Below, piece after piece: positions 447-63,028 of a stretch of DNA of 64,000 nucleotides. Made by a program: the position numbers and the translations under genes. The stretch comes from Fibrobacteraceae bacterium (GTDB lineage: Bacteria > Fibrobacterota > Fibrobacteria > Fibrobacterales > Fibrobacteraceae): contig JAGBSH010000014.1 in NCBI GenBank assembly GCA_017631885.1, positions 1 through 64,000 on the forward strand. The letters are read 5' to 3'. The notes under the pieces are model-generated. The model made no database searches. It was not told where the DNA came from and saw only the letters and a program-made list of their open reading frames with translations. Within the stretch, counting starts at the first letter, position 1, and each line of letters starts with the position of its first letter.

Positions 447-482
447 GATGTCTTTGTTTGCAGGGACTTGTCGACAAGTTAG

Positions 483-630
483 AGATGGCCGCGTCGTCTT
501 AAAAGATTCCTCGCCATGACAACTTGTTGTTAGATCGCCACACTATGTTCGCGATGACAATTCGCACTATGTTTGCGATGACAAGTTGCTAACAGATGGC
601 CACGAGGCATAAGCTTCTCGCCATGACAAG
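483..630. repeat. Cluster of dispersed REP-like repeat units
   Basis: Four related units lie in a row (about 483-520, 532-560, 561-585 and 594-630). Each ends in a GCGATGACA or GCCATGACA motif. The first two match, in inverted orientation and with one mismatch each, units at 63052-63089 and 63120-63148. They are clearly more GC-rich than the coding DNA around them and have no open frame of interest. The pattern resembles short interspersed palindromic repeats found in many bacterial intergenic regions; no transposase is attached. Confidence 0.8.
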
Positions 631-53542: not shown

Positions 53543-54694
53543 TTAACGGCGTAACACGGCCAACATTTCTAAATGTGGGGTTTGGGGGTAAAAAGCAAAG
53601 CCTTCTAGCAAATCTAAAGTAAAACCATTTTTTGCCAAAAGAGATACGTCTCTAGCCAAAGTAACCGGATTACAAGACACATAAATTAATCGTGAAAGAG
53701 CACTTTTGCACAAAGCTTTTAGCGCACTTTGCGGAAGACCTGTTCTTGGAGGGTCAACAATTAAAGAAACGTCATTTGAAACAATATTTTTTTCAAGCCA
53801 ATCTTCTGCAGGTTCAGATACAAATGTTGCAGACGCTTTTAAATTTTTATTTGCCAAACGTAAACAATTTGCATCTCTTTCTACCGCCACAATTTTTTCA
53901 AAAGAATCTTCTAACAAAGCGGCAAAAAATCCAACACCACTAAACAAATCAACAAGTAATGTATTCACTTCAGTCACTTCTTTCACTCGCTTTACCAAAA
54001 CAGGCAAAAGCGAAAGGTTAGATTGAAAAAATACAGAAGCATCTGTATAAATTTTTTTGCCGGCAATCTCTACACTTGTGTTTGCTTTTTCTAAAAATTC
54101 TTTTTGAGACATCCCTTTATAGAAATAAGAAACGGCACCATTACCATTTTCAAAAACTTGAAGTTCTTTCGTTTTTAAAGAAAGAGCTTCTTTTGATTCT
54201 AAAAATTTTTGTAACGCAGGCACAAGTACCTTACATTTTGATGCGACTGGAATAATATGGTGAGAAGCTCCTTCCCGAAAGCCAAATGCGTCTTTAGCTT
54301 TCAATACACGAATTCTGTTTCTGTATTCCCAAGGATTTCCAAAATGAATTGGAAAGTTTTCGGGCAATGTAATATGAGCAAATCGCCTAAATGTATCACA
54401 AATGGCTTCTCTTGCCATAGAGATTTGTAATGAAAGAGAAGCATGTTGTAAAGAACAACCTCCACAGCGTTCATAAAAAGGACAACGCGGGGTTTCTCTC
54501 AAAGGATTTTTCTCTAGAACTTTTAATGTAATAGCTTTTGCAAAATCTTTACCATTATTAGTGATTTTTGCAAGAACAGTTTCTCCTGGCAAAGCCCCTT
54601 GAACAAAGCAAGCTCGACCATCCTGCAAATGGCTGAACCCATCACCGCCTTGGGCTGCTTTTTCAATTTTTAATATGATTTCTTTTTCAAGCAT
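53543..54694 (-). CDS. 23S rRNA (uracil-5-)-methyltransferase, RlmD/RumA type
   Basis: A 383-residue SAM-dependent RNA methyltransferase. An N-terminal TRAM domain (about 1-60, QGGDGFSHLQDGRACFVQGALPGE) binds RNA. The iron-sulfur cysteines CPFYERCGGC (C-x5-C-x2-C) plus a later Cys in ASKCKVL match RlmD. The catalytic domain has LLVDLFSGVGFFAALL, SLIVDPPRTGLPQSAL and YVSCNPVTLARD, with the nucleophile Cys and the base Glu in the last stretch (TPHLEMLAVLRR). RlmD and RlmC cannot be separated with certainty; the cluster ligands favour RlmD/C over TrmA. It overlaps the ABC ATPase gene by eight bases. Confidence 0.92.
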   Translation of the reverse strand: MLEKEIILKIEKAAQGGDGFSHLQDGRACFVQGALPGETVLAKITNNGKDFAKAITLKVLEKNPLRETPRCPFYERCGGCSLQHASLSLQISMAREAICDTFRRFAHITLPENFPIHFGNPWEYRNRIRVLKAKDAFGFREGASHHIIPVASKCKVLVPALQKFLESKEALSLKTKELQVFENGNGAVSYFYKGMSQKEFLEKANTSVEIAGKKIYTDASVFFQSNLSLLPVLVKRVKEVTEVNTLLVDLFSGVGFFAALLEDSFEKIVAVERDANCLRLANKNLKASATFVSEPAEDWLEKNIVSNDVSLIVDPPRTGLPQSALKALCKSALSRLIYVSCNPVTLARDVSLLAKNGFTLDLLEGFAFYPQTPHLEMLAVLRR

Positions 54695-55637
54695 CTTGAT
54701 TTACAAAAAGGCAACGTATTTTACGTTCCTCACCATTTAAATTAGGGCGTTGTGAAAAACAAATTTCTTTTGCCAAAGAACAACGTGGAGCAAAAACACA
54801 ACCTAAAGACGACTTAACAATTTCGCCACTTAAAATTTCTGGCGGGTGTCCAAATTCTAATGTCGGCACACTTTGAATCAAGGCTTGAGTATAAGGGTGC
54901 AAAGGATTTTTAAAAACATCTTCTACTTTGCCCTCTTCTAATGATTGCCCCAAATACATTACCATTACTTTATCGGCAAGTGTTTGAACCACTTGCATAT
55001 CATGAGAAATAAAAATTATCGCTAAATTCAAATCGGTTCGTAAAGTATCTAGTAATTTTAAAACTTGAGCTTGAACCGAAACATCTAGTGCACTAGTCAC
55101 TTCATCACAAACAAGAACTTCAGGGTTTGTCATTAAAGCACGAGCAATCCCTAAACGCTGCCGTTGACCGCCAGAAAATTCATGCGGGTATTTTTCAAGA
55201 GACACCAAAGGCAAGCCTACTTTTTCCAAAACTTCTTCAGCTTTTTTAAAACATTCCTTTTCAGAGAAACTACGATAACGCAATGGATAAGAAAGAATAT
55301 CTAAAACTTTTTGCCTGGGATTCAAACTAGAATAAGGGTCTTGAAAAATCATTTGTACAGAATTCCTTACAGACTTCCATTCTTTTTCAGACTTTAAATC
55401 AACCGACTTTCCGTTTAAAAAATACTTCCCCGAAGCAAATGGTTGCAATCCAACAAGCGCTTGTGCTAGTGTTGACTTCCCACAACCAGATTCACCAACA
55501 ATGGCTAAAATTTCACCTTTTTCCAAAGAAAAAGAGACATCAGAAACAGCTTCTAAATAAGAAAGAGTTCGGGAAAATAAACCACCCCGTTGAGGATACC
55601 TGACACAAGCATCCCGAACTTCTAACAAACTAGACAT
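54687..55637 (-). CDS. Oligopeptide/dipeptide ABC transporter ATPase, DppF/OppF type
   Basis: A 316-residue ATPase of the peptide/nickel importer group. Walker A is GESGCGKST, the signature is FSGGQRQRLGIARAL and Walker B is VLVCDEVTSALDVS. The C-terminal extension with C-x5-C-type cysteines (VFAPRCSLAKEICFSQRPN) and LHPYTQALIQSVP is the oligo_HPY region specific for Opp/Dpp ATPases. No permease or binding protein gene is adjacent. The neighbours xseB and the methyltransferase gene overlap it by eight bases each, so this ATPase has been placed in an unrelated operon and must join subunits encoded elsewhere. Confidence 0.92.
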   Translation of the reverse strand: MSSLLEVRDACVRYPQRGGLFSRTLSYLEAVSDVSFSLEKGEILAIVGESGCGKSTLAQALVGLQPFASGKYFLNGKSVDLKSEKEWKSVRNSVQMIFQDPYSSLNPRQKVLDILSYPLRYRSFSEKECFKKAEEVLEKVGLPLVSLEKYPHEFSGGQRQRLGIARALMTNPEVLVCDEVTSALDVSVQAQVLKLLDTLRTDLNLAIIFISHDMQVVQTLADKVMVMYLGQSLEEGKVEDVFKNPLHPYTQALIQSVPTLEFGHPPEILSGEIVKSSLGCVFAPRCSLAKEICFSQRPNLNGEERKIRCLFVNQDA

Positions 55638-55894: not shown

Positions 55895-56611
55895 ATGAAA
55901 AAGTGCATTAGAAGCTCCTGTTTACTTTTTACATTACAATCCGTTTTAAACAAACGGATCAAAATGATATCTCTATGTACTCTTTCTTCTTTCATTTTAT
56001 TCCTTTTACTTGCCTGCACTTATACACCAGAAAACATTGAAAAAGAAATTTATCTTGATAAAGCTGAAATTGGAATCATTTCACAAAAGGGCGATACTTC
56101 TTATGCATTGGAAATTCCCAACAATGAAAACTTCAAACTTTTTATAAAAACTTCACCGCGTGAATTTAAAGACTCTTTAGAATATTCTTGGTTTAAAAAA
56201 GATTCTCTGCTTTCAAATAAAAGCGTATTTTCGTACACACATAAAAAATCTTTAATTCCTGATTCAGTTACTTTAAACGATAAATTTGGCAACGCATTAG
56301 GCTTATCTTTTAAAATCATTCTCAATTCGCCGCCAAAAATCACAAAAATTTTATCCCCCGCTGAAGGAGATACTTTAATCGGAGACCAAAACACACCATT
56401 CTTATTTTCATGGAACGCTTTTGACGCCGATGGTGATACATTACAATTTTTTATAGAAAAAGATTCTATCCTTTTTCCTGTCGGCATGTGGGACTACGCT
56501 CACTTAACCCATTTCTCTGAAGGGAGTCATAAATTCCGCATTATCGCAAACGACTTGTATAATAGTGCCGATACATCTTTATGGATTCATTTTTATGTAA
56601 AGGAACAATAA
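55895..56611 (+). CDS. Ig-like lipoprotein A of the five-gene envelope operon
   Basis: A 238-residue protein. The better lipoprotein signal begins at the internal ATG 55964 (MISLCTLSSFILFLLLAC, a clean lipobox); the ATG at 55895 has an AAGAG site but would give an over-long n-region, so the real start is uncertain. The mature part has two beta domains: the first ends in DKFGNALGLSFKIILNSPPKI and the second has ILSPAEGDTLIGDQNTPF and FSWNAFDADGDTLQFFI, as in fibronectin/cadherin-like sandwiches. The same two-part layout recurs in the next two genes. It starts the operon. The function is unknown. Confidence 0.72.
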   Translation: MKKCIRSSCLLFTLQSVLNKRIKMISLCTLSSFILFLLLACTYTPENIEKEIYLDKAEIGIISQKGDTSYALEIPNNENFKLFIKTSPREFKDSLEYSWFKKDSLLSNKSVFSYTHKKSLIPDSVTLNDKFGNALGLSFKIILNSPPKITKILSPAEGDTLIGDQNTPFLFSWNAFDADGDTLQFFIEKDSILFPVGMWDYAHLTHFSEGSHKFRIIANDLYNSADTSLWIHFYVKEQ

Positions 56612-56613
56612 TC

Positions 56614-58080
56614 ATGAAATTTTTGTTCCTTTGTTTACTATTTCTCCTTTCTAGCTGCATTGATTCAGATGCTGTTCTTTCTGAGAATGAAAGTGAAAAA
56701 ATAAAAGTAAACGCCTTTATTTTCAATGACAATGCAAGCAACCTAAAAGATACGACAATCGCTTTAAAAGACACAGTATTTCTCATTGGAAATATCTTAC
56801 CTGAAAGAGGAACTCACATTCAAAAATATTTTTGGAAAGATCCTAACAACAATATTTTCAAAGAATTTCAAATCAAATTTAAACCAACAAAACCTGGGAA
56901 CTTTGTTTATCATTTTACCATTGTTGATTTTCACGGAGATTCTCTTTCGGATTCTGTACAAATAAATGTTTCTACACCGCCTGTTTTAGATTCTATTCAT
57001 TGGTTACCAGAAAATAATTCTTCACGTTTATCTCCAGATTCTGTATTCTTTTCTTGGAATGCAAGCGATAAAGATAACGACAACCTTTTTTACATTTTTG
57101 AAATCTTTGAAAACAACAAAAAAATCATAGATACATTACTCAGCACTACTTGCATCAAACCGGACTTAAAATTTAAAGAATTAGAAACTTACGAATGGAA
57201 AGTAACTGTTTTTGATTCTGAAGGCATACAGGGTAATACTATTCATTCCGAATTTGCTACAGGTCATTCAAAAGGTTTAGCGCGTTTAAGTGGCAAAATA
57301 AATATTTTCCCAGATTCCCTTTTGAAAAAAGTAAAACTCTATTTAGTACAAAACGATTCATCAAAAGAATTAACGCTAAATGACAGCCTATTTGATACAG
57401 GTTTTATTAACTCTGGTGCATATACACTTCGAGCAAATGTTATGACTTTTTCAGATTACCAATCACACGAACAAACGTACCATTTAAAACCCGGTGATTT
57501 AAAAGACAACATTAATTTTTTACTTGAAGACAATAAAGCGCCTTCTTTTCCAACGTTAAAAAGCGACACACTCCCCTATGTTTCCCAGTTAATATTTCCA
57601 ATAGAAAATCATGGAATTCAATTAGACTCCCAAAACATTTCTCTTACTTTAGACAATGAACCATTACAATTTTCTTTGTCTAACGATACTTTATCCATAG
57701 AACTTCCAAAGTACAATTTGCCTATTTGTCGTTTTTTATCATTAACAGTAAAAGACATTAACAACAATTCCATTTCGCAAACATTTTATCTCTGTAAAGA
57801 ATCAGCATGGGCAACGCCTCTTTACGATACAACTCTTAACCAGCAAGACACATTAAACATTTCATTTTATGAAACCAACCCTTATCATCTCGAATTAAAA
57901 GACATTATTTGGTCATCTAAAGAAAACCCTGCATGGACATTTACGCAAACCAAATCTGATTCTAGCATTACCATTTATGCTTCTCTTTTTTCTGTTGGAA
58001 AATACACAATAGAAGCTCTTTCTCGATACGAAAATGGTCTTGAACTCCAAAATCAATTTATTCTGGAGGTTAAAGAATGA
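56614..58080 (+). CDS. Ig-like lipoprotein B of the five-gene envelope operon
   Basis: A 488-residue lipoprotein with lipobox LLSSC (about 11-15). After a first beta domain ending in VQINVSTPPVLDSIHWLPE comes FFSWNASDKDNDNLFYIFEIFEN, the counterpart of the sandwich in lipoprotein A, then further domains (a carboxypeptidase-regulatory-like one near LARLSGKINIFPDSLLKKVKLYLV, followed by Ig-like ones). AGGA nine bases before the ATG at 56614 supports this start; the upstream in-frame ATG would lie in lipoprotein A. It ends with an ATGA overlap into lipoprotein C. No enzyme motif. Many Asn/Lys/Asp in loops suggest an exposed periplasmic or surface protein. Confidence 0.78.
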   Translation: MKFLFLCLLFLLSSCIDSDAVLSENESEKIKVNAFIFNDNASNLKDTTIALKDTVFLIGNILPERGTHIQKYFWKDPNNNIFKEFQIKFKPTKPGNFVYHFTIVDFHGDSLSDSVQINVSTPPVLDSIHWLPENNSSRLSPDSVFFSWNASDKDNDNLFYIFEIFENNKKIIDTLLSTTCIKPDLKFKELETYEWKVTVFDSEGIQGNTIHSEFATGHSKGLARLSGKINIFPDSLLKKVKLYLVQNDSSKELTLNDSLFDTGFINSGAYTLRANVMTFSDYQSHEQTYHLKPGDLKDNINFLLEDNKAPSFPTLKSDTLPYVSQLIFPIENHGIQLDSQNISLTLDNEPLQFSLSNDTLSIELPKYNLPICRFLSLTVKDINNNSISQTFYLCKESAWATPLYDTTLNQQDTLNISFYETNPYHLELKDIIWSSKENPAWTFTQTKSDSSITIYASLFSVGKYTIEALSRYENGLELQNQFILEVKE

Positions 58081-59399
58081 GAACAATGGCTATAATATTT
58101 TCACTGCTTTGTTTATTATCAGCTTGCAGTGAAGACGTTCTTTTAAACACAAATGACACAAAAAAAATCACCAATGAATTTTTCTTAATTCCAAAAGAAA
58201 ATTCTTCTTTAGCAGGACGAAAACCATTAGATTCGTTATTTATACAACCTGCCGAAACTTTATTTATCCGAGCCGTTGCAAAAGCCCAAGAAGAAATCAT
58301 TCCGGCAAATGAACTGGGCAAACATTTTTTTGTCAGATACTGGGCATACAAAGGTTTCATGCTTAACGAAGAAAGCATTCGTGTGCTTTGGAACGAACCA
58401 GGAACAGACACGCTTTGCCATTATTCTATAGATCTTCTTGGTGATACTTTAAAAACGTGCCTACCTGTTTTTATAAATTCAACGCCAAGCATAAAATTCC
58501 TTTCACCAGAAAATGCTTTTAATACAATAAATCCTACTGATTCCATTTTATTCCAATGGAAAATTTCTGGGCAAGATTCCTGGGAAAAATCAGAATGCGA
58601 AATCTATTTAAATCAAAGTAAAAAAGATTTATGGCTAACAAAACCAAAACAAATTAATTGCAATAAACCTTTTAAAATATTAGCTAACGATTTAAATAAT
58701 TCTTCTGATTATCCACTTTATTTTTGGGGCATAAAGCTCAAAACTTTTTCCCAAGAAAATTCTGAAAATGTTTTTTCTGAAATCCATTCTTTCCGATTTG
58801 CATTGCCTGATTCTTCTGCGGCATTCGTCGTTCCTATTAGATACGAAGCTTCTAGAAACTACGCCAAAAATGGTGAACTTTATGTTTTATTAAAAGACTC
58901 CATTGTAAACAAATACACTTTCCATAGCGATACTTCAATATTTATTTCAAACTTAAAAAACAATAAAAACTATAAATTCATTGTACAAGAAACTCTTCGA
59001 ACAGATTATGAAAAAGATTCTACCCTAGCCTTCCTTGAAAAAAATCTCATTACAACAACAGACACATTAATTTTAAAAGACAACACTCCTCCTGAAGCAA
59101 TGCCTTTAAAAGAATCTTTTTCAAAAAATGATTCCATTCGTTTTCTAGCTCTAGAAAATGGGAGCGGTTTCAACGCTTTGCGTTCTGCAATTATTTTAGA
59201 AAATTCAAAAGATACAATCCCTTACAAATTCAAAAACAATCAATTTGCTTTCACTCTTGACTGTGAAACTTCTTGTAAAATTGCTATTCATTTAGAAGAT
59301 AACGCTAAAAACAAAAGCCCTAAAAAGTTTTGGAAATTACAATTCACTGAAAAAAATATCTTTGTTTTAGGCCCTTATTTTGCAGGAGATTTAGAATGA
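58077..59399 (+). CDS. Ig-like lipoprotein C of the five-gene envelope operon
   Basis: A 440-residue lipoprotein with lipobox LLSAC (about 13-17). The first domain ends in LKTCLPVFINSTPSIKFLSPENAF, matching the position and type of NSPPKI in A and STPPVL in B. The following part LFQWKISGQDSWEKSECEIY corresponds to their FSWNA segment. A second half (about 250-440) has a repeat-like beta region. Coupled at both ends by four-base ATGA overlaps (with B at 58077 and with the next gene at 59396). Three related lipoproteins in a row indicate duplication with divergence. Confidence 0.78.
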   Translation: MRTMAIIFSLLCLLSACSEDVLLNTNDTKKITNEFFLIPKENSSLAGRKPLDSLFIQPAETLFIRAVAKAQEEIIPANELGKHFFVRYWAYKGFMLNEESIRVLWNEPGTDTLCHYSIDLLGDTLKTCLPVFINSTPSIKFLSPENAFNTINPTDSILFQWKISGQDSWEKSECEIYLNQSKKDLWLTKPKQINCNKPFKILANDLNNSSDYPLYFWGIKLKTFSQENSENVFSEIHSFRFALPDSSAAFVVPIRYEASRNYAKNGELYVLLKDSIVNKYTFHSDTSIFISNLKNNKNYKFIVQETLRTDYEKDSTLAFLEKNLITTTDTLILKDNTPPEAMPLKESFSKNDSIRFLALENGSGFNALRSAIILENSKDTIPYKFKNNQFAFTLDCETSCKIAIHLEDNAKNKSPKKFWKLQFTEKNIFVLGPYFAGDLE

Positions 59400-60007
59400 A
59401 ACTCCTAGCCATTTTATTCTTTTTTAGTATTTCTATTTTTGCAAAAGATTTTAAAACTTTGCACGTTTCTGCCTGGCCGGCTAATACTGAAATTTATGCA
59501 GAAAAACTAACCCCAGATTATTCTACAAAGGCTGATTACATTTCACCGGCTGCAATACAGATTCCATTACACCAAAATAAAATTTCCCTCACTTTTTTCC
59601 AACCTTTATTTAGAGATTCAACAATAGAAGTAACTATCCCCGATTTAGAAGATTCTTATCTTATGGTTATTTTAGACAAAGAATCTAATCCTGAAAAAAT
59701 TTATTTCCAGGAACAAAACTTAAAGAAACGAACCAAACGAATTGTCGGAAAGGGCATGATGTTTTCAAGTATCATTCCTTTTGGAATAGCAAGTTTCACT
59801 CTTATTAAAAATTATCTTGAATACAAAGAAGCTAATGACATACGCGAAGAATTAAAACATCATAAAATATATACATCAAAAACAGAATCGCTAAAACAAG
59901 ATTTCAATCAGCACAAAAACAAATCTGAAAATTACAAAACCGCTACTTATTGGTTTTCTGGAATTGGTGTTGCTTTACTAAGCATTGGATTTTACTTGCA
60001 TTTTTGA
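59396..60007 (+). CDS. Exported two-helix membrane protein with DIREELK motif
   Basis: A 203-residue protein with a signal peptide (about 1-16, ending FAKD), a beta-rich domain to about residue 110 that resembles a PEGA-like fold, and two C-terminal hydrophobic segments (about 121-140 and 182-200). Between these is a charged helical linker beginning EANDIREELKHH. The same arrangement, with KAKDIRDELKKP, ends the next gene. The basic KKRTKR before the first segment suggests an inner-membrane anchor. Function unknown. Coupled to lipoprotein C by an ATGA overlap and six bases from the next gene. Confidence 0.75.
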   Translation: MKLLAILFFFSISIFAKDFKTLHVSAWPANTEIYAEKLTPDYSTKADYISPAAIQIPLHQNKISLTFFQPLFRDSTIEVTIPDLEDSYLMVILDKESNPEKIYFQEQNLKKRTKRIVGKGMMFSSIIPFGIASFTLIKNYLEYKEANDIREELKHHKIYTSKTESLKQDFNQHKNKSENYKTATYWFSGIGVALLSIGFYLHF

Positions 60008-60013
60008 GGGCTT

Positions 60014-61555
60014 ATGAAATATTTCCTTTTACTTTTGTGTTTCATTTCTGTTTTACAAGCACGGCTCCCTGAAAAAGGTGAATCTGTTTTTGTAGAGCTT
60101 AAATCTGGTATAAAACAAAAAGCTGAATTTGCGGGCTTTAACGCAGACACTGTTTTACTTGGTGGTTACATCAAAAATGAATATGCCATTGTTAAAATTC
60201 CAAAAACCTCTTTTGTTCAAATAATTTCTTCTGCTAATGGCGATACGCTTTCTTTAGAAGAATTGCCGGATTCTGTTTTGAGTATTTCAGATTCAACAAA
60301 AAACAACGATTCTCTTTTAACAGATTCTTCTTTTGACGCTAATATTTTATCAGCCTTTGAAAACAAAACTATTCTTGTCCCATTCAGTAAACGCCCGATT
60401 GATTCTAGCTTTGCCATAAGCCTTCAGAATCTATTTTACGATCTATTAAAAGAAGACCAACAAGCCCCCGTATTGGTTACAGATTCTATTCTTGAAAATT
60501 GTATTGAAATTTCTTGTTCATTACCTTTATTACGCAAGTTAAAACCAAAAGCCATTCTTTTTGGGAACATTCTTCCAAGTACAAATGATAGTTTACGTCT
60601 AGAACTTTCTTACTTTTCAAATGAAGGTGAACCAGAAGAAACAAGTATAAATATTTCTGCCAAAAATCCTTTTTCCCAAACTTTAGAGGGAAGCACAATT
60701 AAACAAGCTTTAAACACTTTATTCAAAAAAGTTCCAGAATCTAAAAAACAAGCTGATACCATTTATATAAAACCAGAATTTAATTATGTCTTTGTTGAAA
60801 CCGAACCAGAAGGCGCTCTTTTAACGCTTGCCAAAGGAAACTCAATCTGTAAAACACCTTGCACTTACGCCACCAAAGATACTGGCATTGTAGAACTTTA
60901 TGCTTATTGGGATGTAGACGAACACTTGTGGGCCGAAACCATTAAAACAAGAATTTTACCCGATGATACTACTAAAATTTCTATGCGTCTCCAAAGAGTC
61001 CAACCTAAAATTCAAATTGTATCTCACCCAGAAGGAGCTGAAATTTTTCTTAACGACACAATCACTCGCTTTACCGCTAGCTTAGGAAAAACACCGAAAA
61101 TTTTAAATAAAAATACACTTGGTGAATCATCTTTATTCCTTTCAAAAGAAGGCTTTAGAGACACAACCATTCATTTTTATATTATGCCAAGTGAAAAAAA
61201 TAAAATCGATGTAACTTTAACACCACTTACACTCCCTAGTGAAATTGATGTCCAACAAAAAGAACGCAAAAAACGTCTTTTAGAAAAAGTAGGCATAACA
61301 CTTATAGGAACTTCTATTGTGCCAGCAGTTATTGGTGGCGTATTTGCTTACCTTTCTGCAAAAGATTATAAAAAAGCAAAAGATATTCGCGACGAACTTA
61401 AAAAGCCTCATATTGCAAATGGTCCTAATTACGATAAGCAAAAAAAAGAAAACAAAAAATACGCAGACAGAAGCGATGAACGGGCTTACGTGAGTATAAC
61501 CTCTTTTGCAGTAGCTATTGGACTTTTAGGAGCAGGCATAGTCATTTCATTTTAA
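60014..61555 (+). CDS. Exported CsgG-like/PEGA protein with C-terminal membrane hairpin
   Basis: A 513-residue protein with a signal peptide (about 1-16). A first beta part (about 20-65) precedes a domain with KTILVPFSKRP, a CIEISCSLPLL pair of Cys, and LKPKAILFGNI (about 115-225), a pattern seen in CsgG/FlgT/TolB-N-like nucleotide- or peptide-binding folds. Two PEGA-type domains follow (ETEPEGALLTLAKG and VSHPEGAEIFLND). The end has a basic stretch (KERKKRLLEKVG), a membrane segment, KAKDIRDELKKP, a charged helix and a second membrane segment, just as in the gene before it. It is likely an inner-membrane-anchored periplasmic protein. PEGA proteins often bind or organise the envelope. It is the last gene of the operon. 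Confidence 0.75.
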   Translation: MKYFLLLLCFISVLQARLPEKGESVFVELKSGIKQKAEFAGFNADTVLLGGYIKNEYAIVKIPKTSFVQIISSANGDTLSLEELPDSVLSISDSTKNNDSLLTDSSFDANILSAFENKTILVPFSKRPIDSSFAISLQNLFYDLLKEDQQAPVLVTDSILENCIEISCSLPLLRKLKPKAILFGNILPSTNDSLRLELSYFSNEGEPEETSINISAKNPFSQTLEGSTIKQALNTLFKKVPESKKQADTIYIKPEFNYVFVETEPEGALLTLAKGNSICKTPCTYATKDTGIVELYAYWDVDEHLWAETIKTRILPDDTTKISMRLQRVQPKIQIVSHPEGAEIFLNDTITRFTASLGKTPKILNKNTLGESSLFLSKEGFRDTTIHFYIMPSEKNKIDVTLTPLTLPSEIDVQQKERKKRLLEKVGITLIGTSIVPAVIGGVFAYLSAKDYKKAKDIRDELKKPHIANGPNYDKQKKENKKYADRSDERAYVSITSFAVAIGLLGAGIVISF

Positions 61556-61568
61556 TAAATTTAACTCT

Positions 61569-62285
61569 ATGAAAAAAATATCCATTTCTTTACTTCTTCT
61601 TTTAGCAGTTTCTGCCTTTGCACAAAACACTCCTGAATCCGCAAGTATTTATGAGCGAGTTATTGATTGGTACAACCATCACCTAAACTATGGAACCATT
61701 AGCCTGCTTATGGCAATAGAAAGTTCCTTTATTCCATTTCCATCTGAACTAGTTGTGCCACCGGCCGCTTACAAAGCTTTTCAACCAGATTCTGAATTAA
61801 ACATTGTCATCATCTTTTTTGCCGCTACTTTTGGCGCTCTCGTTGGTGCTTATGTCAACTATTTTCTAGCCAAAGCTTTAGGACGCCCTATTATTTACAA
61901 GTTCGCAGATTCTCGTTTAGGTCACATGTGTCTCATTGATTCTTCAAAAGTCAAAAAAGCAGAAGATTTTTTCATTGAACATGGTAACCTCTCAACTTTA
62001 GTTGGGCGCCTTATCCCAGGCATTCGCCAGCTCATTTCTATTCCAGCTGGTCTTGCAAAAATGAAATTACTTCCTTTTACCATTTTTACACTCATTGGGG
62101 CCGCCTTTTGGAATATCGTTCTAATCGTTTTAGGGTATTTAGCCCATGGACAAAAAGATTTAATTGAAAAATACAACCATGAAATTTCTTTGGGACTAGC
62201 TGTCCTTGGCGTTTTATTTATCGCTTACCTAATTTCTCAGGCTTTTAAAAAGAAACCAGAAAACAAAGAATCTTCTGAAAATTAA
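61569..62285 (+). CDS. DedA family membrane protein
   Basis: A 238-residue DedA protein. After an unusual signal-peptide-like N-terminus (about 1-19, ending AFA), the family motifs follow: AIESSFIPFPSELVVPPAAY, ATFGALVGAYVNYFLAKALG, FIEHGNLSTLVGRLIPGIRQLISIPAGLA and AAFWNIVLIVLGY. The PFPSE and GRLIPGIRQ motifs with the charged residues are those needed for function in E. coli DedA proteins, which are linked to lipid flipping and membrane potential. It lies 14 bases after the five-gene envelope operon and may be transcribed with it. Confidence 0.92.
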   Translation: MKKISISLLLLLAVSAFAQNTPESASIYERVIDWYNHHLNYGTISLLMAIESSFIPFPSELVVPPAAYKAFQPDSELNIVIIFFAATFGALVGAYVNYFLAKALGRPIIYKFADSRLGHMCLIDSSKVKKAEDFFIEHGNLSTLVGRLIPGIRQLISIPAGLAKMKLLPFTIFTLIGAAFWNIVLIVLGYLAHGQKDLIEKYNHEISLGLAVLGVLFIAYLISQAFKKKPENKESSEN

Positions 62286-62323: not shown

Positions 62324-62362
62324 AGTGTTCTTATTGACACTTGAACAAAAAAGCAGTATATT
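62324..62362 (+). promoter_or_regulatory. lexA promoter with palindromic operator candidate
   Basis: TTGACA (62334-62339) and TATATT (62357-62362) are 17 bases apart, a near-consensus promoter. AGTGT (62324-62328) and ACACT (62337-62341) form an inverted repeat that overlaps the -35 box and would let LexA repress its own gene. It does not match the E. coli CTGT-N8-ACAG or Gram-positive GAAC-N4-GTTC operator, though GTTC (62327-62330) and GAAC (62343-62346) flank it further apart. GGAGG (62370-62374) ahead of the ATG is a strong ribosome binding site. Confidence 0.65.
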
Positions 62363-62380: not shown

Positions 62381-63028
62381 ATGTCCAATCAAGAACAAGA
62401 ACAAAAACGCGCTCTTACCCCGCGTCAGCAAGAAATTTATGAATACATCAAGGTGCAGACCGAAGAATTTCGTCGGCCACCTACAGTTCGTGAAATTGCT
62501 AATCGTTTTAATATATCCTCTACCAATGGCGTTCGCTCTATTTTAGCGGCACTTATCAAAAAAGGCTATATAAACCGTTCTCCTCGTACAAGCCGTGGCA
62601 TTGAAATTCTCCATGACGAAACCCCTGCTACAGATTCTTCTTCTGTAGAAATCCCTATTGTGGGGCGCGTAGCTGCAGGGGAACCTATTTTAGCCGTTCA
62701 GAATTTAGAAGGCACAATCACTATTGACCGAGATTTTATCGCACGCCGTAAAGATGTTTTTGCTTTGCGTGTTAAAGGCGATTCTATGATCAATGCTGGT
62801 ATTTTTGATGGAGACCTTGTTTTTGCCCAACAGCAAAATACAGCAGAACGTGGTGAAATCATCATCGCTAAAATCGATGACGAAGCTACAGTAAAATATT
62901 TTCAGCCACAAAAAGAATGGGTTGAACTCCATGCTGCTAACCCAAAATACCAACCAATTATAGTTCGCCCAGAACGCGACTTTTCTATTGCAGGCCGTGT
63001 TATCGGTATTATGCGTAAAATAAACTAG
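62381..63028 (+). CDS. lexA: SOS response repressor LexA
   Basis: Represses DNA-repair genes and is cleaved on RecA activation. The 215-residue protein has the N-terminal winged helix ([44 protein letters not shown]), a linker, and the peptidase domain. The self-cleavage bond is A99-G100 (GRVAAGEP), the nucleophile is S135 (GDSMI) and the general base is K172 (DEATVKYF). A strong promoter and GGAGG site precede it. Recognition-helix residues ([10 protein letters not shown]) differ from those of E. coli LexA (SPNAAEEHL-type), which fits a different operator. Confidence 0.97.

Follow-up and report, generated by a model that had tools for sequence, protein, structure and literature searches.

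Gene organization

The window, namely the entire 64,000-nucleotide stretch of Fibrobacteraceae DNA that was analyzed, contains at positions 55895-61555 five co-directional genes on the + strand, referred to here as lp1, lp2, lp3, g4, and g5. Features of the locus are listed in Table 1. The intergenic spacings, in gene order, are 2 bp, an ATGA overlap, a second ATGA overlap, and 6 bp. Both the coordinates and the tight coupling recorded in an earlier note on this DNA were confirmed upon re-examination. The start of lp1 at 55895 is preceded by a ribosome-binding-like sequence, AAAGAG; the alternative ATG at 55964 has no such site. In a scan for promoters and terminators, promoter-like matches were no more common than in shuffled sequence.

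The gene for the DedA/VTT-family membrane protein that follows g5 was rejected as a core component because its linkage is not universal. A sixth gene adjoins most of the other named loci and encodes a protein of ∼500 amino acids with an outer-membrane-barrel-like region, repeats, and a Lys-rich tail. It was also rejected because it is missing from the genus of the window, from several other genera, and from genome G060, and is located elsewhere in genome G002.

Table 1 Features of the five-gene locus and its downstream neighbor.
Feature	Position	Strand	Description
lp1	55895..56611	+	Lipoprotein, lipobox LLAC, Cys codon 56015-56017; PKD-like and Ig/Fn3-like domains
lp2	56614..58080	+	Lipoprotein, lipobox LSSC; K319L-like PKD domain and further Ig-like domains
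lp3	58077..59399	+	Lipoprotein, lipobox LSAC; string of Ig-like sandwiches
g4	59396..60007	+	Signal peptide, PEGA-like domain, helical hairpin, C-terminal Phe
g5	60014..61555	+	Signal peptide, LSm/SH3-like domain, CsgG/TolB-N/PelC-like domain, two PEGA domains, helical hairpin, C-terminal Phe
g5, residues 23-72	60080..60229	+	LSm/SH3-like small all-β domain; weak Foldseek match to Hfq
g5, residues 118-240	60365..60733	+	TolB N-terminal/PelC/CsgG-like α/β domain, by fold; Pfam CsgG/LpoB in relatives
g5, residues 257-404	60782..61225	+	Two PEGA domains; second, Pfam E = 3e-11
g5, residues 408-513	61235..61552	+	Helical hairpin with charged loop, ending at the invariant Phe 513
DedA/VTT-family membrane protein	61569..62285	+	13 bp downstream of g5; linkage in several genera

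The lipoproteins

Pairwise BLAST comparisons of the three lipoproteins gave E-values of 1e-4 (lp1/lp2), 8e-4 (lp1/lp3), and 7e-6 (lp2/lp3), and in a control none of 300 shuffles matched any of these scores or that of the g4/g5 pair. The corresponding profile-profile alignments gave E-values of 1.8e-15 over 207 columns, 3e-10, and 8e-34 over 395 columns. Judged by these alignments, the three proteins are paralogous beyond chance, as had been proposed in the earlier note, and the layout described there is likewise common to them, with the (N/S)(S/T)P(P/S) and F-x-W motifs in lp1, lp2, and lp3. The lipobox cysteine is conserved. The AlphaFold2 model of lp3 is a string of Ig-like sandwiches (pLDDT 85), in agreement with Foldseek, and in lp2 residues 45 to 119 match a K319L-like PKD domain in Pfam with an E-value of 7e-5, which is under the curated cut-off. 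With a lipobox and Ig-like sandwiches in each of lp1 to lp3, these proteins are outer-membrane-type lipoproteins built as strings of Ig-like sandwiches. The FISUMP domain (PF09603, Fib_succ_major) was not found in lp1-lp3 by a domain search.

Domain architecture of g4 and g5

Sequence comparison indicates that g4 and g5 are also paralogous, with a BLAST E-value of 2e-11 and a profile-profile E-value of 6.5e-31 over 180 columns, and the common C-terminal hairpin module that had been claimed for them is borne out. In g4, however, the shared tail does not stand alone, for a PEGA-like domain, seen by profile only, is additionally present at approximately residues 22 to 98.

The description of g5 as a CsgG-like part and two PEGA domains was upheld by fold and by distant relatives, and less fully by Pfam. 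The PEGA domain of g5 (PF08308) scores 43.4 bits against a curated cut-off of 20.8, and the cut-off is exceeded in 14 of 15 relatives, but only the C-terminal PEGA domain of g5 is strong by Pfam. Although Pfam finds no CsgG domain in the g5 of the window, distant relatives do match it (PF03783, E-values down to 1.6e-11), and by fold the region resembles the TolB N-terminal domain and PelC, with TolB providing the best Foldseek matches.

Conservation and proposed function

A neighborhood search in the Fibrobacterota, suggested earlier as a check, revealed the gene order to be conserved family-wide and a reduced g5/lipoprotein pair to occur phylum-wide. A relative of g5 is present in all 111 family genomes (11 of 11 genera), and in each Fibrobacteraceae genus sampled the set is retained, whether complete, trimmed, or readable only in part. 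The order lp1-lp2-lp3-g4-g5 recurs across genera, and all 13 named Fibrobacteraceae loci whose upstream sequence is readable show it in a scan that used an alignment of closer relatives. Loci without gene 4, found in the genera labelled g2 and g4, have one or two short lipoproteins beside a g5 of reduced length, with a single exception, a genus-g4 locus (L126) in which no recognizable lipoprotein adjoins g5. Since such loci keep that pair, the minimal set is a lipoprotein and g5. Several Fibrobacteraceae also carry a stand-alone paralog of the hairpin protein (L052, L104).

Outside of the Fibrobacteraceae, 10 loci were readable, and in 8 of them the gene immediately after the g5 relative encodes a lipoprotein; these adjacency counts are not fully independent. 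FISUMP is present in five of the eight lipoproteins, far more than expected by chance, although the genomes concerned have only 6-51 FISUMP matches each. In the sister-family genomes G151 and G152 the hairpin protein stands alone. From the pairs outside of the family, the core emerges as one hairpin/PEGA protein and one Ig-stalk lipoprotein, with the five-gene form an expansion. The core is an exported protein with PEGA domains, a C-terminal helical hairpin, and in most forms a CsgG/TolB-N-like domain, encoded beside at least one Ig/PKD lipoprotein. The Fibrobacteraceae have three paralogs of the lipoprotein, and a PEGA-hairpin part of g5 occurs again as g4.

The five-gene set is probably an undescribed cell-envelope complex. 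The reading that we prefer, at a probability of roughly 0.45, is that of a lineage-expanded Fibrobacterota envelope module: a periplasmic scaffold, anchored by its hairpins, would hold or present Ig-stalk lipoproteins, probably for display at the cell surface or for contact with substrates. The lipid of the stalk lipoproteins would fix them in the outer membrane, and the hairpin proteins would be anchored in a membrane and extend their CsgG-like and PEGA domains into the periplasm, where, on the precedent of the CsgG and PelC rings, they probably form an oligomeric collar. Scaffold and stalks are expected to bind each other, and the former would therefore fix or present the latter. Outside of the family the stalk often appears to end in FISUMP, which is thought to be lectin-like, and such tips suggest that the likely job of the module is to present surface contact or ligand-binding proteins. 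The Fibrobacteraceae may have lost this tip or transferred it to different proteins. Against this reading count the hairpin proteins that stand alone, locus L126, and the lack of FISUMP in the Fibrobacteraceae lipoproteins of the operon.

Alternatively, fast-evolving lipoproteins and a PEGA protein might be joined by transcription, with no physical link. The lipoproteins are just 20-35% identical between genera and vary in domain number, and five genus-g4 loci adjoin a divergently transcribed ECF-type sigma-factor gene; both observations would suit co-regulation. Inherited synteny, however, poorly explains why the pairing recurs in distant families with the reverse gene order and different lipoprotein tips, and we regard this explanation as rather improbable.

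FISUMP is a hallmark surface domain of the Fibrobacterota for which we know of no assigned partner. A role as cohesin analog has been suggested for it, and most Fibrobacteres have 17-119 copies (PMC4704652); together with FGE-sulfatase domains it is found in the variable proteins of diversity-generating retroelements (PMC4159848). In distant families the module associates FISUMP lipoproteins with a defined partner in the membrane, and the Fibrobacteraceae keep an expanded, FISUMP-free version. The module may bear on the unsettled matter of how, without cellulosomes, Fibrobacterota adhere to insoluble polymers and break them down.

Comparison with known systems

Searches of Pfam, NCBIfam, and PDB sequence profiles yielded nothing above cut-off other than PEGA and placed none of the proteins in a known complex, in keeping with the earlier view that no known system has this arrangement. 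Matches of g4 to Toxin B in the PDB (E-values of 0.02-0.1 over 40 residues) and a Pfam match to EssA were taken as chance.

The CsgG curli channel is similar in the CsgG-type periplasmic domain of the g5 relatives. The g5 protein, however, contains neither a lipobox nor the barrel-forming β-hairpins, and has a helical hairpin and PEGA domains instead. No curli genes (csgA/B/E/F) were seen in the operon or its neighborhoods. Residues 118 to 240 of g5 share a fold with PelC (TM-score by target of about 0.5) and with the N-terminal domain of TolB, but PelC is a single-domain lipoprotein and TolB a β-propeller protein, neither with PEGA or a hairpin. Unlike the Tol-Pal component, g5 continues from its N-terminal-type fold into PEGA and the hairpin, with no β-propeller. 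FISUMP lipoproteins (TIGR02145/PF09603) are represented by the PKD/Ig-plus-FISUMP neighbors of g5 relatives in other families and differ from lp1-lp3, which have no FISUMP domain. With PEGA surface or periplasmic proteins g5 has in common the PEGA domain and a Sec signal. That described family includes neither the hairpin with an invariant Phe at its end nor a lipoprotein partner, and PEGA alone defines no system.

A likeness to LpoB, the activator of PBP1b, in domain and in presumed periplasmic setting, leads to a second alternative, in which the CsgG/LpoB/TolB-N-like domain would contact peptidoglycan synthases or Tol-like partners from the periplasm and the lipoproteins would serve as periplasmic outer-membrane tethers with no surface role. 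The LpoB (PF13036) and TolB_N models do match distant g5 relatives, and the presence of g5 in every family genome suits a housekeeping function. Elsewhere in the Fibrobacter succinogenes genome, moreover, a PEGA protein (FSU_1783) and a lipoprotein with an LpoB/LptE motif (FSU_1784) have adjacent locus numbers (PMC4619616, PMC6851124); FSU_1783, a 20 kDa protein, was not taken as g4. The LpoB match is weak and confined to relatives, though, and both models score near the cut-off and, in most of these proteins, below CsgG. Furthermore, g5 has neither the propeller of TolB nor the lipobox of LpoB, and in other families the domain on the partner is FISUMP, not a peptidoglycan domain. Such an envelope-integrity complex is unlikely, albeit worth keeping in mind.

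The hairpin and its placement in the membrane

The AlphaFold2 model of the g5 hairpin is helical, with pLDDT values of about 84-88 over most of its length, and its hydrophobic segments are apolar throughout and contain small-residue motifs. A β-strand reading of the hairpin was rejected because of this helical model and uniform hydrophobicity; the transmembrane β-strands of a β-barrel outer-membrane protein are thus not seen in the model, in spite of a C-terminus like that of such proteins. All 87 collected g4/g5 relatives end in Phe, with a hydrophobic residue at -2 in all 87 and Gly at -5 in 79, two PEGA proteins adjoining FGE-sulfatase genes (G146 and G144 C92) that lack the terminal Phe having been kept out of the set. 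The resulting tail, G-x-x-φ-x-F, resembles the β-signal of outer-membrane proteins (PMC10945584). The Omp85 proteins of these organisms are likewise mostly Phe-terminated. Both g4 and g5 carry a Sec signal, and the basic flank on the exported side of the hairpin has a net charge of +2.9 in 20 residues versus +0.8 in the 44-residue loop. Together, the Sec signal, this flank, and the Phe are at odds with a simple placement in the inner membrane, so that the hairpin may sit in either membrane, and the earlier idea that the five proteins reach from the inner membrane through the periplasm to the outer membrane stays a conjecture.

Rings are formed by CsgG and PelC, and the passage of Wza through the outer membrane is an α-helical barrel. 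With these as precedents, g5, and g4 with it, might oligomerize through the CsgG/PelC-like domain such that the hairpins form an α-helical outer-membrane pore or collar by which the neighboring lipoproteins are exported or flipped to the surface. The β-signal-like tail, its counterpart in the Omp85 proteins, and the exported basic flank are compatible with such a port. Uniformly apolar segments with small-residue motifs, however, suit packed helices rather than a pore lining, and the missing CsgG-type β-hairpins weigh against it as well, so that a port seems quite improbable. Still more doubtful is the proposal that g4 and g5 found a class of α-helical outer-membrane proteins that bear an OMP-type C-terminal Phe signal, are delivered by BAM, and are arranged in a CsgG/PelC-like ring through or on which Ig/FISUMP lipoproteins are displayed at the Fibrobacterota surface. 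A helical hairpin that invariably ends in Phe is, in any event, a sharp oddity of membrane-protein sorting.

Operon Organization and Paralogy

The five genes of the operon (see the table) are as tightly coupled as the earlier note had described: 2 bp separate genes 1 and 2, ATGA overlaps join gene 2 to gene 3 and gene 3 to gene 4, and 6 bp separate genes 4 and 5. An ABC-transporter gene (54687-55637) diverges from gene 1, and a DedA-family gene lies 13 bp 3' of gene 5. The lipobox cysteine is retained in the alignments of the lipoproteins lp1 and lp3, and nearly so in that of lp2; the residue at position +2 following it is not an aspartate in any of the three. A strong sigma-70-like promoter (TTGACA-17-TATATT, 11/12) is located at 62334-62362, upstream of a lexA-like gene (62381-63028).

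Operon genes (nucleotide positions in the window) and gene 5 domains (residues)
Feature	Position	Strand	Description
Gene 1 (lp1)	55895-56611	+	lipoprotein, signal peptide with lipobox LLAC
Gene 2 (lp2)	56614-58080	+	lipoprotein, signal peptide with lipobox LSSC
Gene 3 (lp3)	58077-59399	+	lipoprotein, signal peptide with lipobox LSAC
Gene 4	59396-60007	+	signal peptide without lipobox
Gene 5	60014-61555	+	signal peptide without lipobox
Gene 5, small all-β domain	aa 23-72		AlphaFold2; weak LSm/Hfq match
Gene 5, α/β domain	aa 118-240		matches TolB N-terminal domain (E=6e-6), PelC (E=2e-3)
Gene 5, two PEGA domains	aa 257-404		AlphaFold2
Gene 5, hairpin, long helices	aa 408-462, 473-512		AlphaFold2

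Pairwise BLAST searches with shuffles and, far more strongly, profile-profile comparisons of the family alignments reveal that lp1, lp2, and lp3 are homologous, with lp2 and lp3 aligning over 395 columns (profile-profile E=8e-34). Gene 4 aligns with the PEGA-plus-hairpin portion of gene 5; this alignment spans 180 columns (profile-profile E=6.5e-31). The proposed paralogy of the three lipoproteins and of the two C-terminal modules thus stands, and it can be extended in that gene 4 is a gene 5 version with a single PEGA domain. When the genome of the window is searched, the lp2 profile matches lp2 and lp3 only; with gene 5 as the query, the hits are gene 5, gene 4, and a single weak one.

Distribution within the Fibrobacteraceae

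A gene 5 relative is present in 111 of 111 genomes, representing all 11 of 11 genera. The order lp1-lp2-lp3-gene 4-gene 5 is found at each of the 13 named loci with readable upstream sequence, including that of Fibrobacter intestinalis ATCC 43854, and in genomes of several further genera, where some copies have an end cut or a gene uncalled. Outside the window's genome, genes were called as simple ORFs, and several of the assemblies are fragmented. Two genera, g2 and g4, carry a reduced set of one or two short lipoproteins and a gene 5 that lacks the LSm-like domain; gene 4 is missing, and at one such locus (L126) no lipoprotein was recognized. Gene 4 and the three-lipoprotein form occur together and probably reflect one evolutionary event.

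At five genus g4 loci (L048, L122, L123, L125, L126), the module has as its divergent neighbor a small gene for an ECF-type sigma factor (Sigma70_r2, E about 1e-11 to 1e-14), a possible regulator. A strongly conserved gene, usually 3' of gene 5 (L036:11662-13092, L040:11812-13356, L066:10619-12154, and others), encodes an outer-membrane-barrel-like protein with a repeat region and a lysine-rich tail, 53-81% identical to the F. intestinalis copy; it is missing in the window's genus and sited elsewhere in genome G002. A separate standalone PEGA-hairpin paralog with a terminal phenylalanine and no lipoprotein neighbor is observed at L052:9190-10632 and L104:5969-7372.

Domain Architecture and Known Systems

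The AlphaFold2 model of lp3 (pLDDT 85) displays a string of β-sandwich domains. In Foldseek it matches multi-Ig proteins of many kinds with low whole-protein TM-scores, which arise because the domain angles differ, and the search therefore provides a fold class rather than a relative. A K319L-like PKD match in lp2 falls under the curated cut-off. The gene 5 model (pLDDT 79.5) contains the two PEGA domains that had been predicted. The CsgG-like part that had also been assigned to it was not matched in the window's own protein, but Pfam does match CsgG in distant relatives, together with LpoB and TolB_N more weakly. The main rival explanation is a role in envelope integrity or peptidoglycan exerted by way of this LpoB/TolB-like domain. 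For each of LpoB, Tol-Pal, the CsgG channel, and a β-barrel system, one defining feature was looked for in the operon and found to be absent, and thus the operon is none of these. Nor was any report of the domain combination, its conservation, or its FISUMP link found in the open-access PubMed Central literature. The parts themselves fall in known domain families.

The Terminal Phenylalanine and Hairpin Placement

Phenylalanine is the very last residue in each of the 87 relatives of genes 4 and 5 that were collected, which come from several families; position -2 is hydrophobic in all 87 and position -5 is glycine in 79. Being homologous they are not 87 independent events, but their other residues vary widely. 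Of the four positions specified in the β-signal of outer-membrane proteins, ζ-x-G-x-x-φ-x-φ (PMC10945584), the tail matches three. Unrelated raw ORFs at these loci have a terminal phenylalanine in 11% of cases, as do 2 of 23 having a hydrophobic segment at the extreme C-terminus. The terminal-aromatic convention holds in the Fibrobacterota, since most readable Omp85 proteins end in phenylalanine (L110, L111, L112, L115, L117-L119). The hairpin carries a net charge of +2.9 in the 20 residues preceding its first helix versus +0.8 in its 44-residue loop, which for a Sec-exported hairpin in the inner membrane would reverse the positive-inside rule. Signature and charge tend to favor placement in the outer membrane or an unusual one. 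In the AlphaFold2 model the hairpin is formed by helices, not strands.

Lipoprotein Partners and Proposed Function

Among 57 other Fibrobacterota genomes, the gene 5 profile gave 13 matches in 11. Ten relatives outside the family end in phenylalanine and have a readable downstream gene; within this single phylum, and with cases that are not independent, a lipoprotein gene follows directly in eight (G153, G129, G144 C130, G167, G165 C485, G165 C199, G141, G143), the reverse of the Fibrobacteraceae order, and two, of the sister family (G151, G152), stand alone. Five of the eight partners carry or end in FISUMP (PF09603), preceded by domains of the PKD, Ig, or Fn3-associated type; in the remaining three, Pfam recognizes PKD/Big domains or nothing. 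FISUMP matches number 6 to 51 in each genome that encodes one of the five, and assuming, roughly, 3,500-5,000 genes per genome, a chance FISUMP neighbor is expected in ∼0.3-3% of cases, so that five exceed expectation. FISUMP, a proposed cohesin analog, occurs in 17-119 copies in most examined Fibrobacteres genomes (PMC4704652).

Beyond the observed conserved gene set, paralogy, fold classes, and recurrent lipoprotein partner, we envisage that the lipoproteins would be anchored in the outer membrane and would contact a periplasmic scaffold formed by the CsgG-like/PEGA parts. The module would present Ig-stalk proteins, tipped with FISUMP in other families. A ligand-binding tip is supported by the variable proteins of diversity-generating retroelements, which include FISUMP and FGE-sulfatase domains (PMC4159848). 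At L100:6218-8148 and L101:5662-7236, PEGA proteins lacking the terminal phenylalanine directly adjoin FGE-sulfatase-domain proteins, possibly a parallel pairing.
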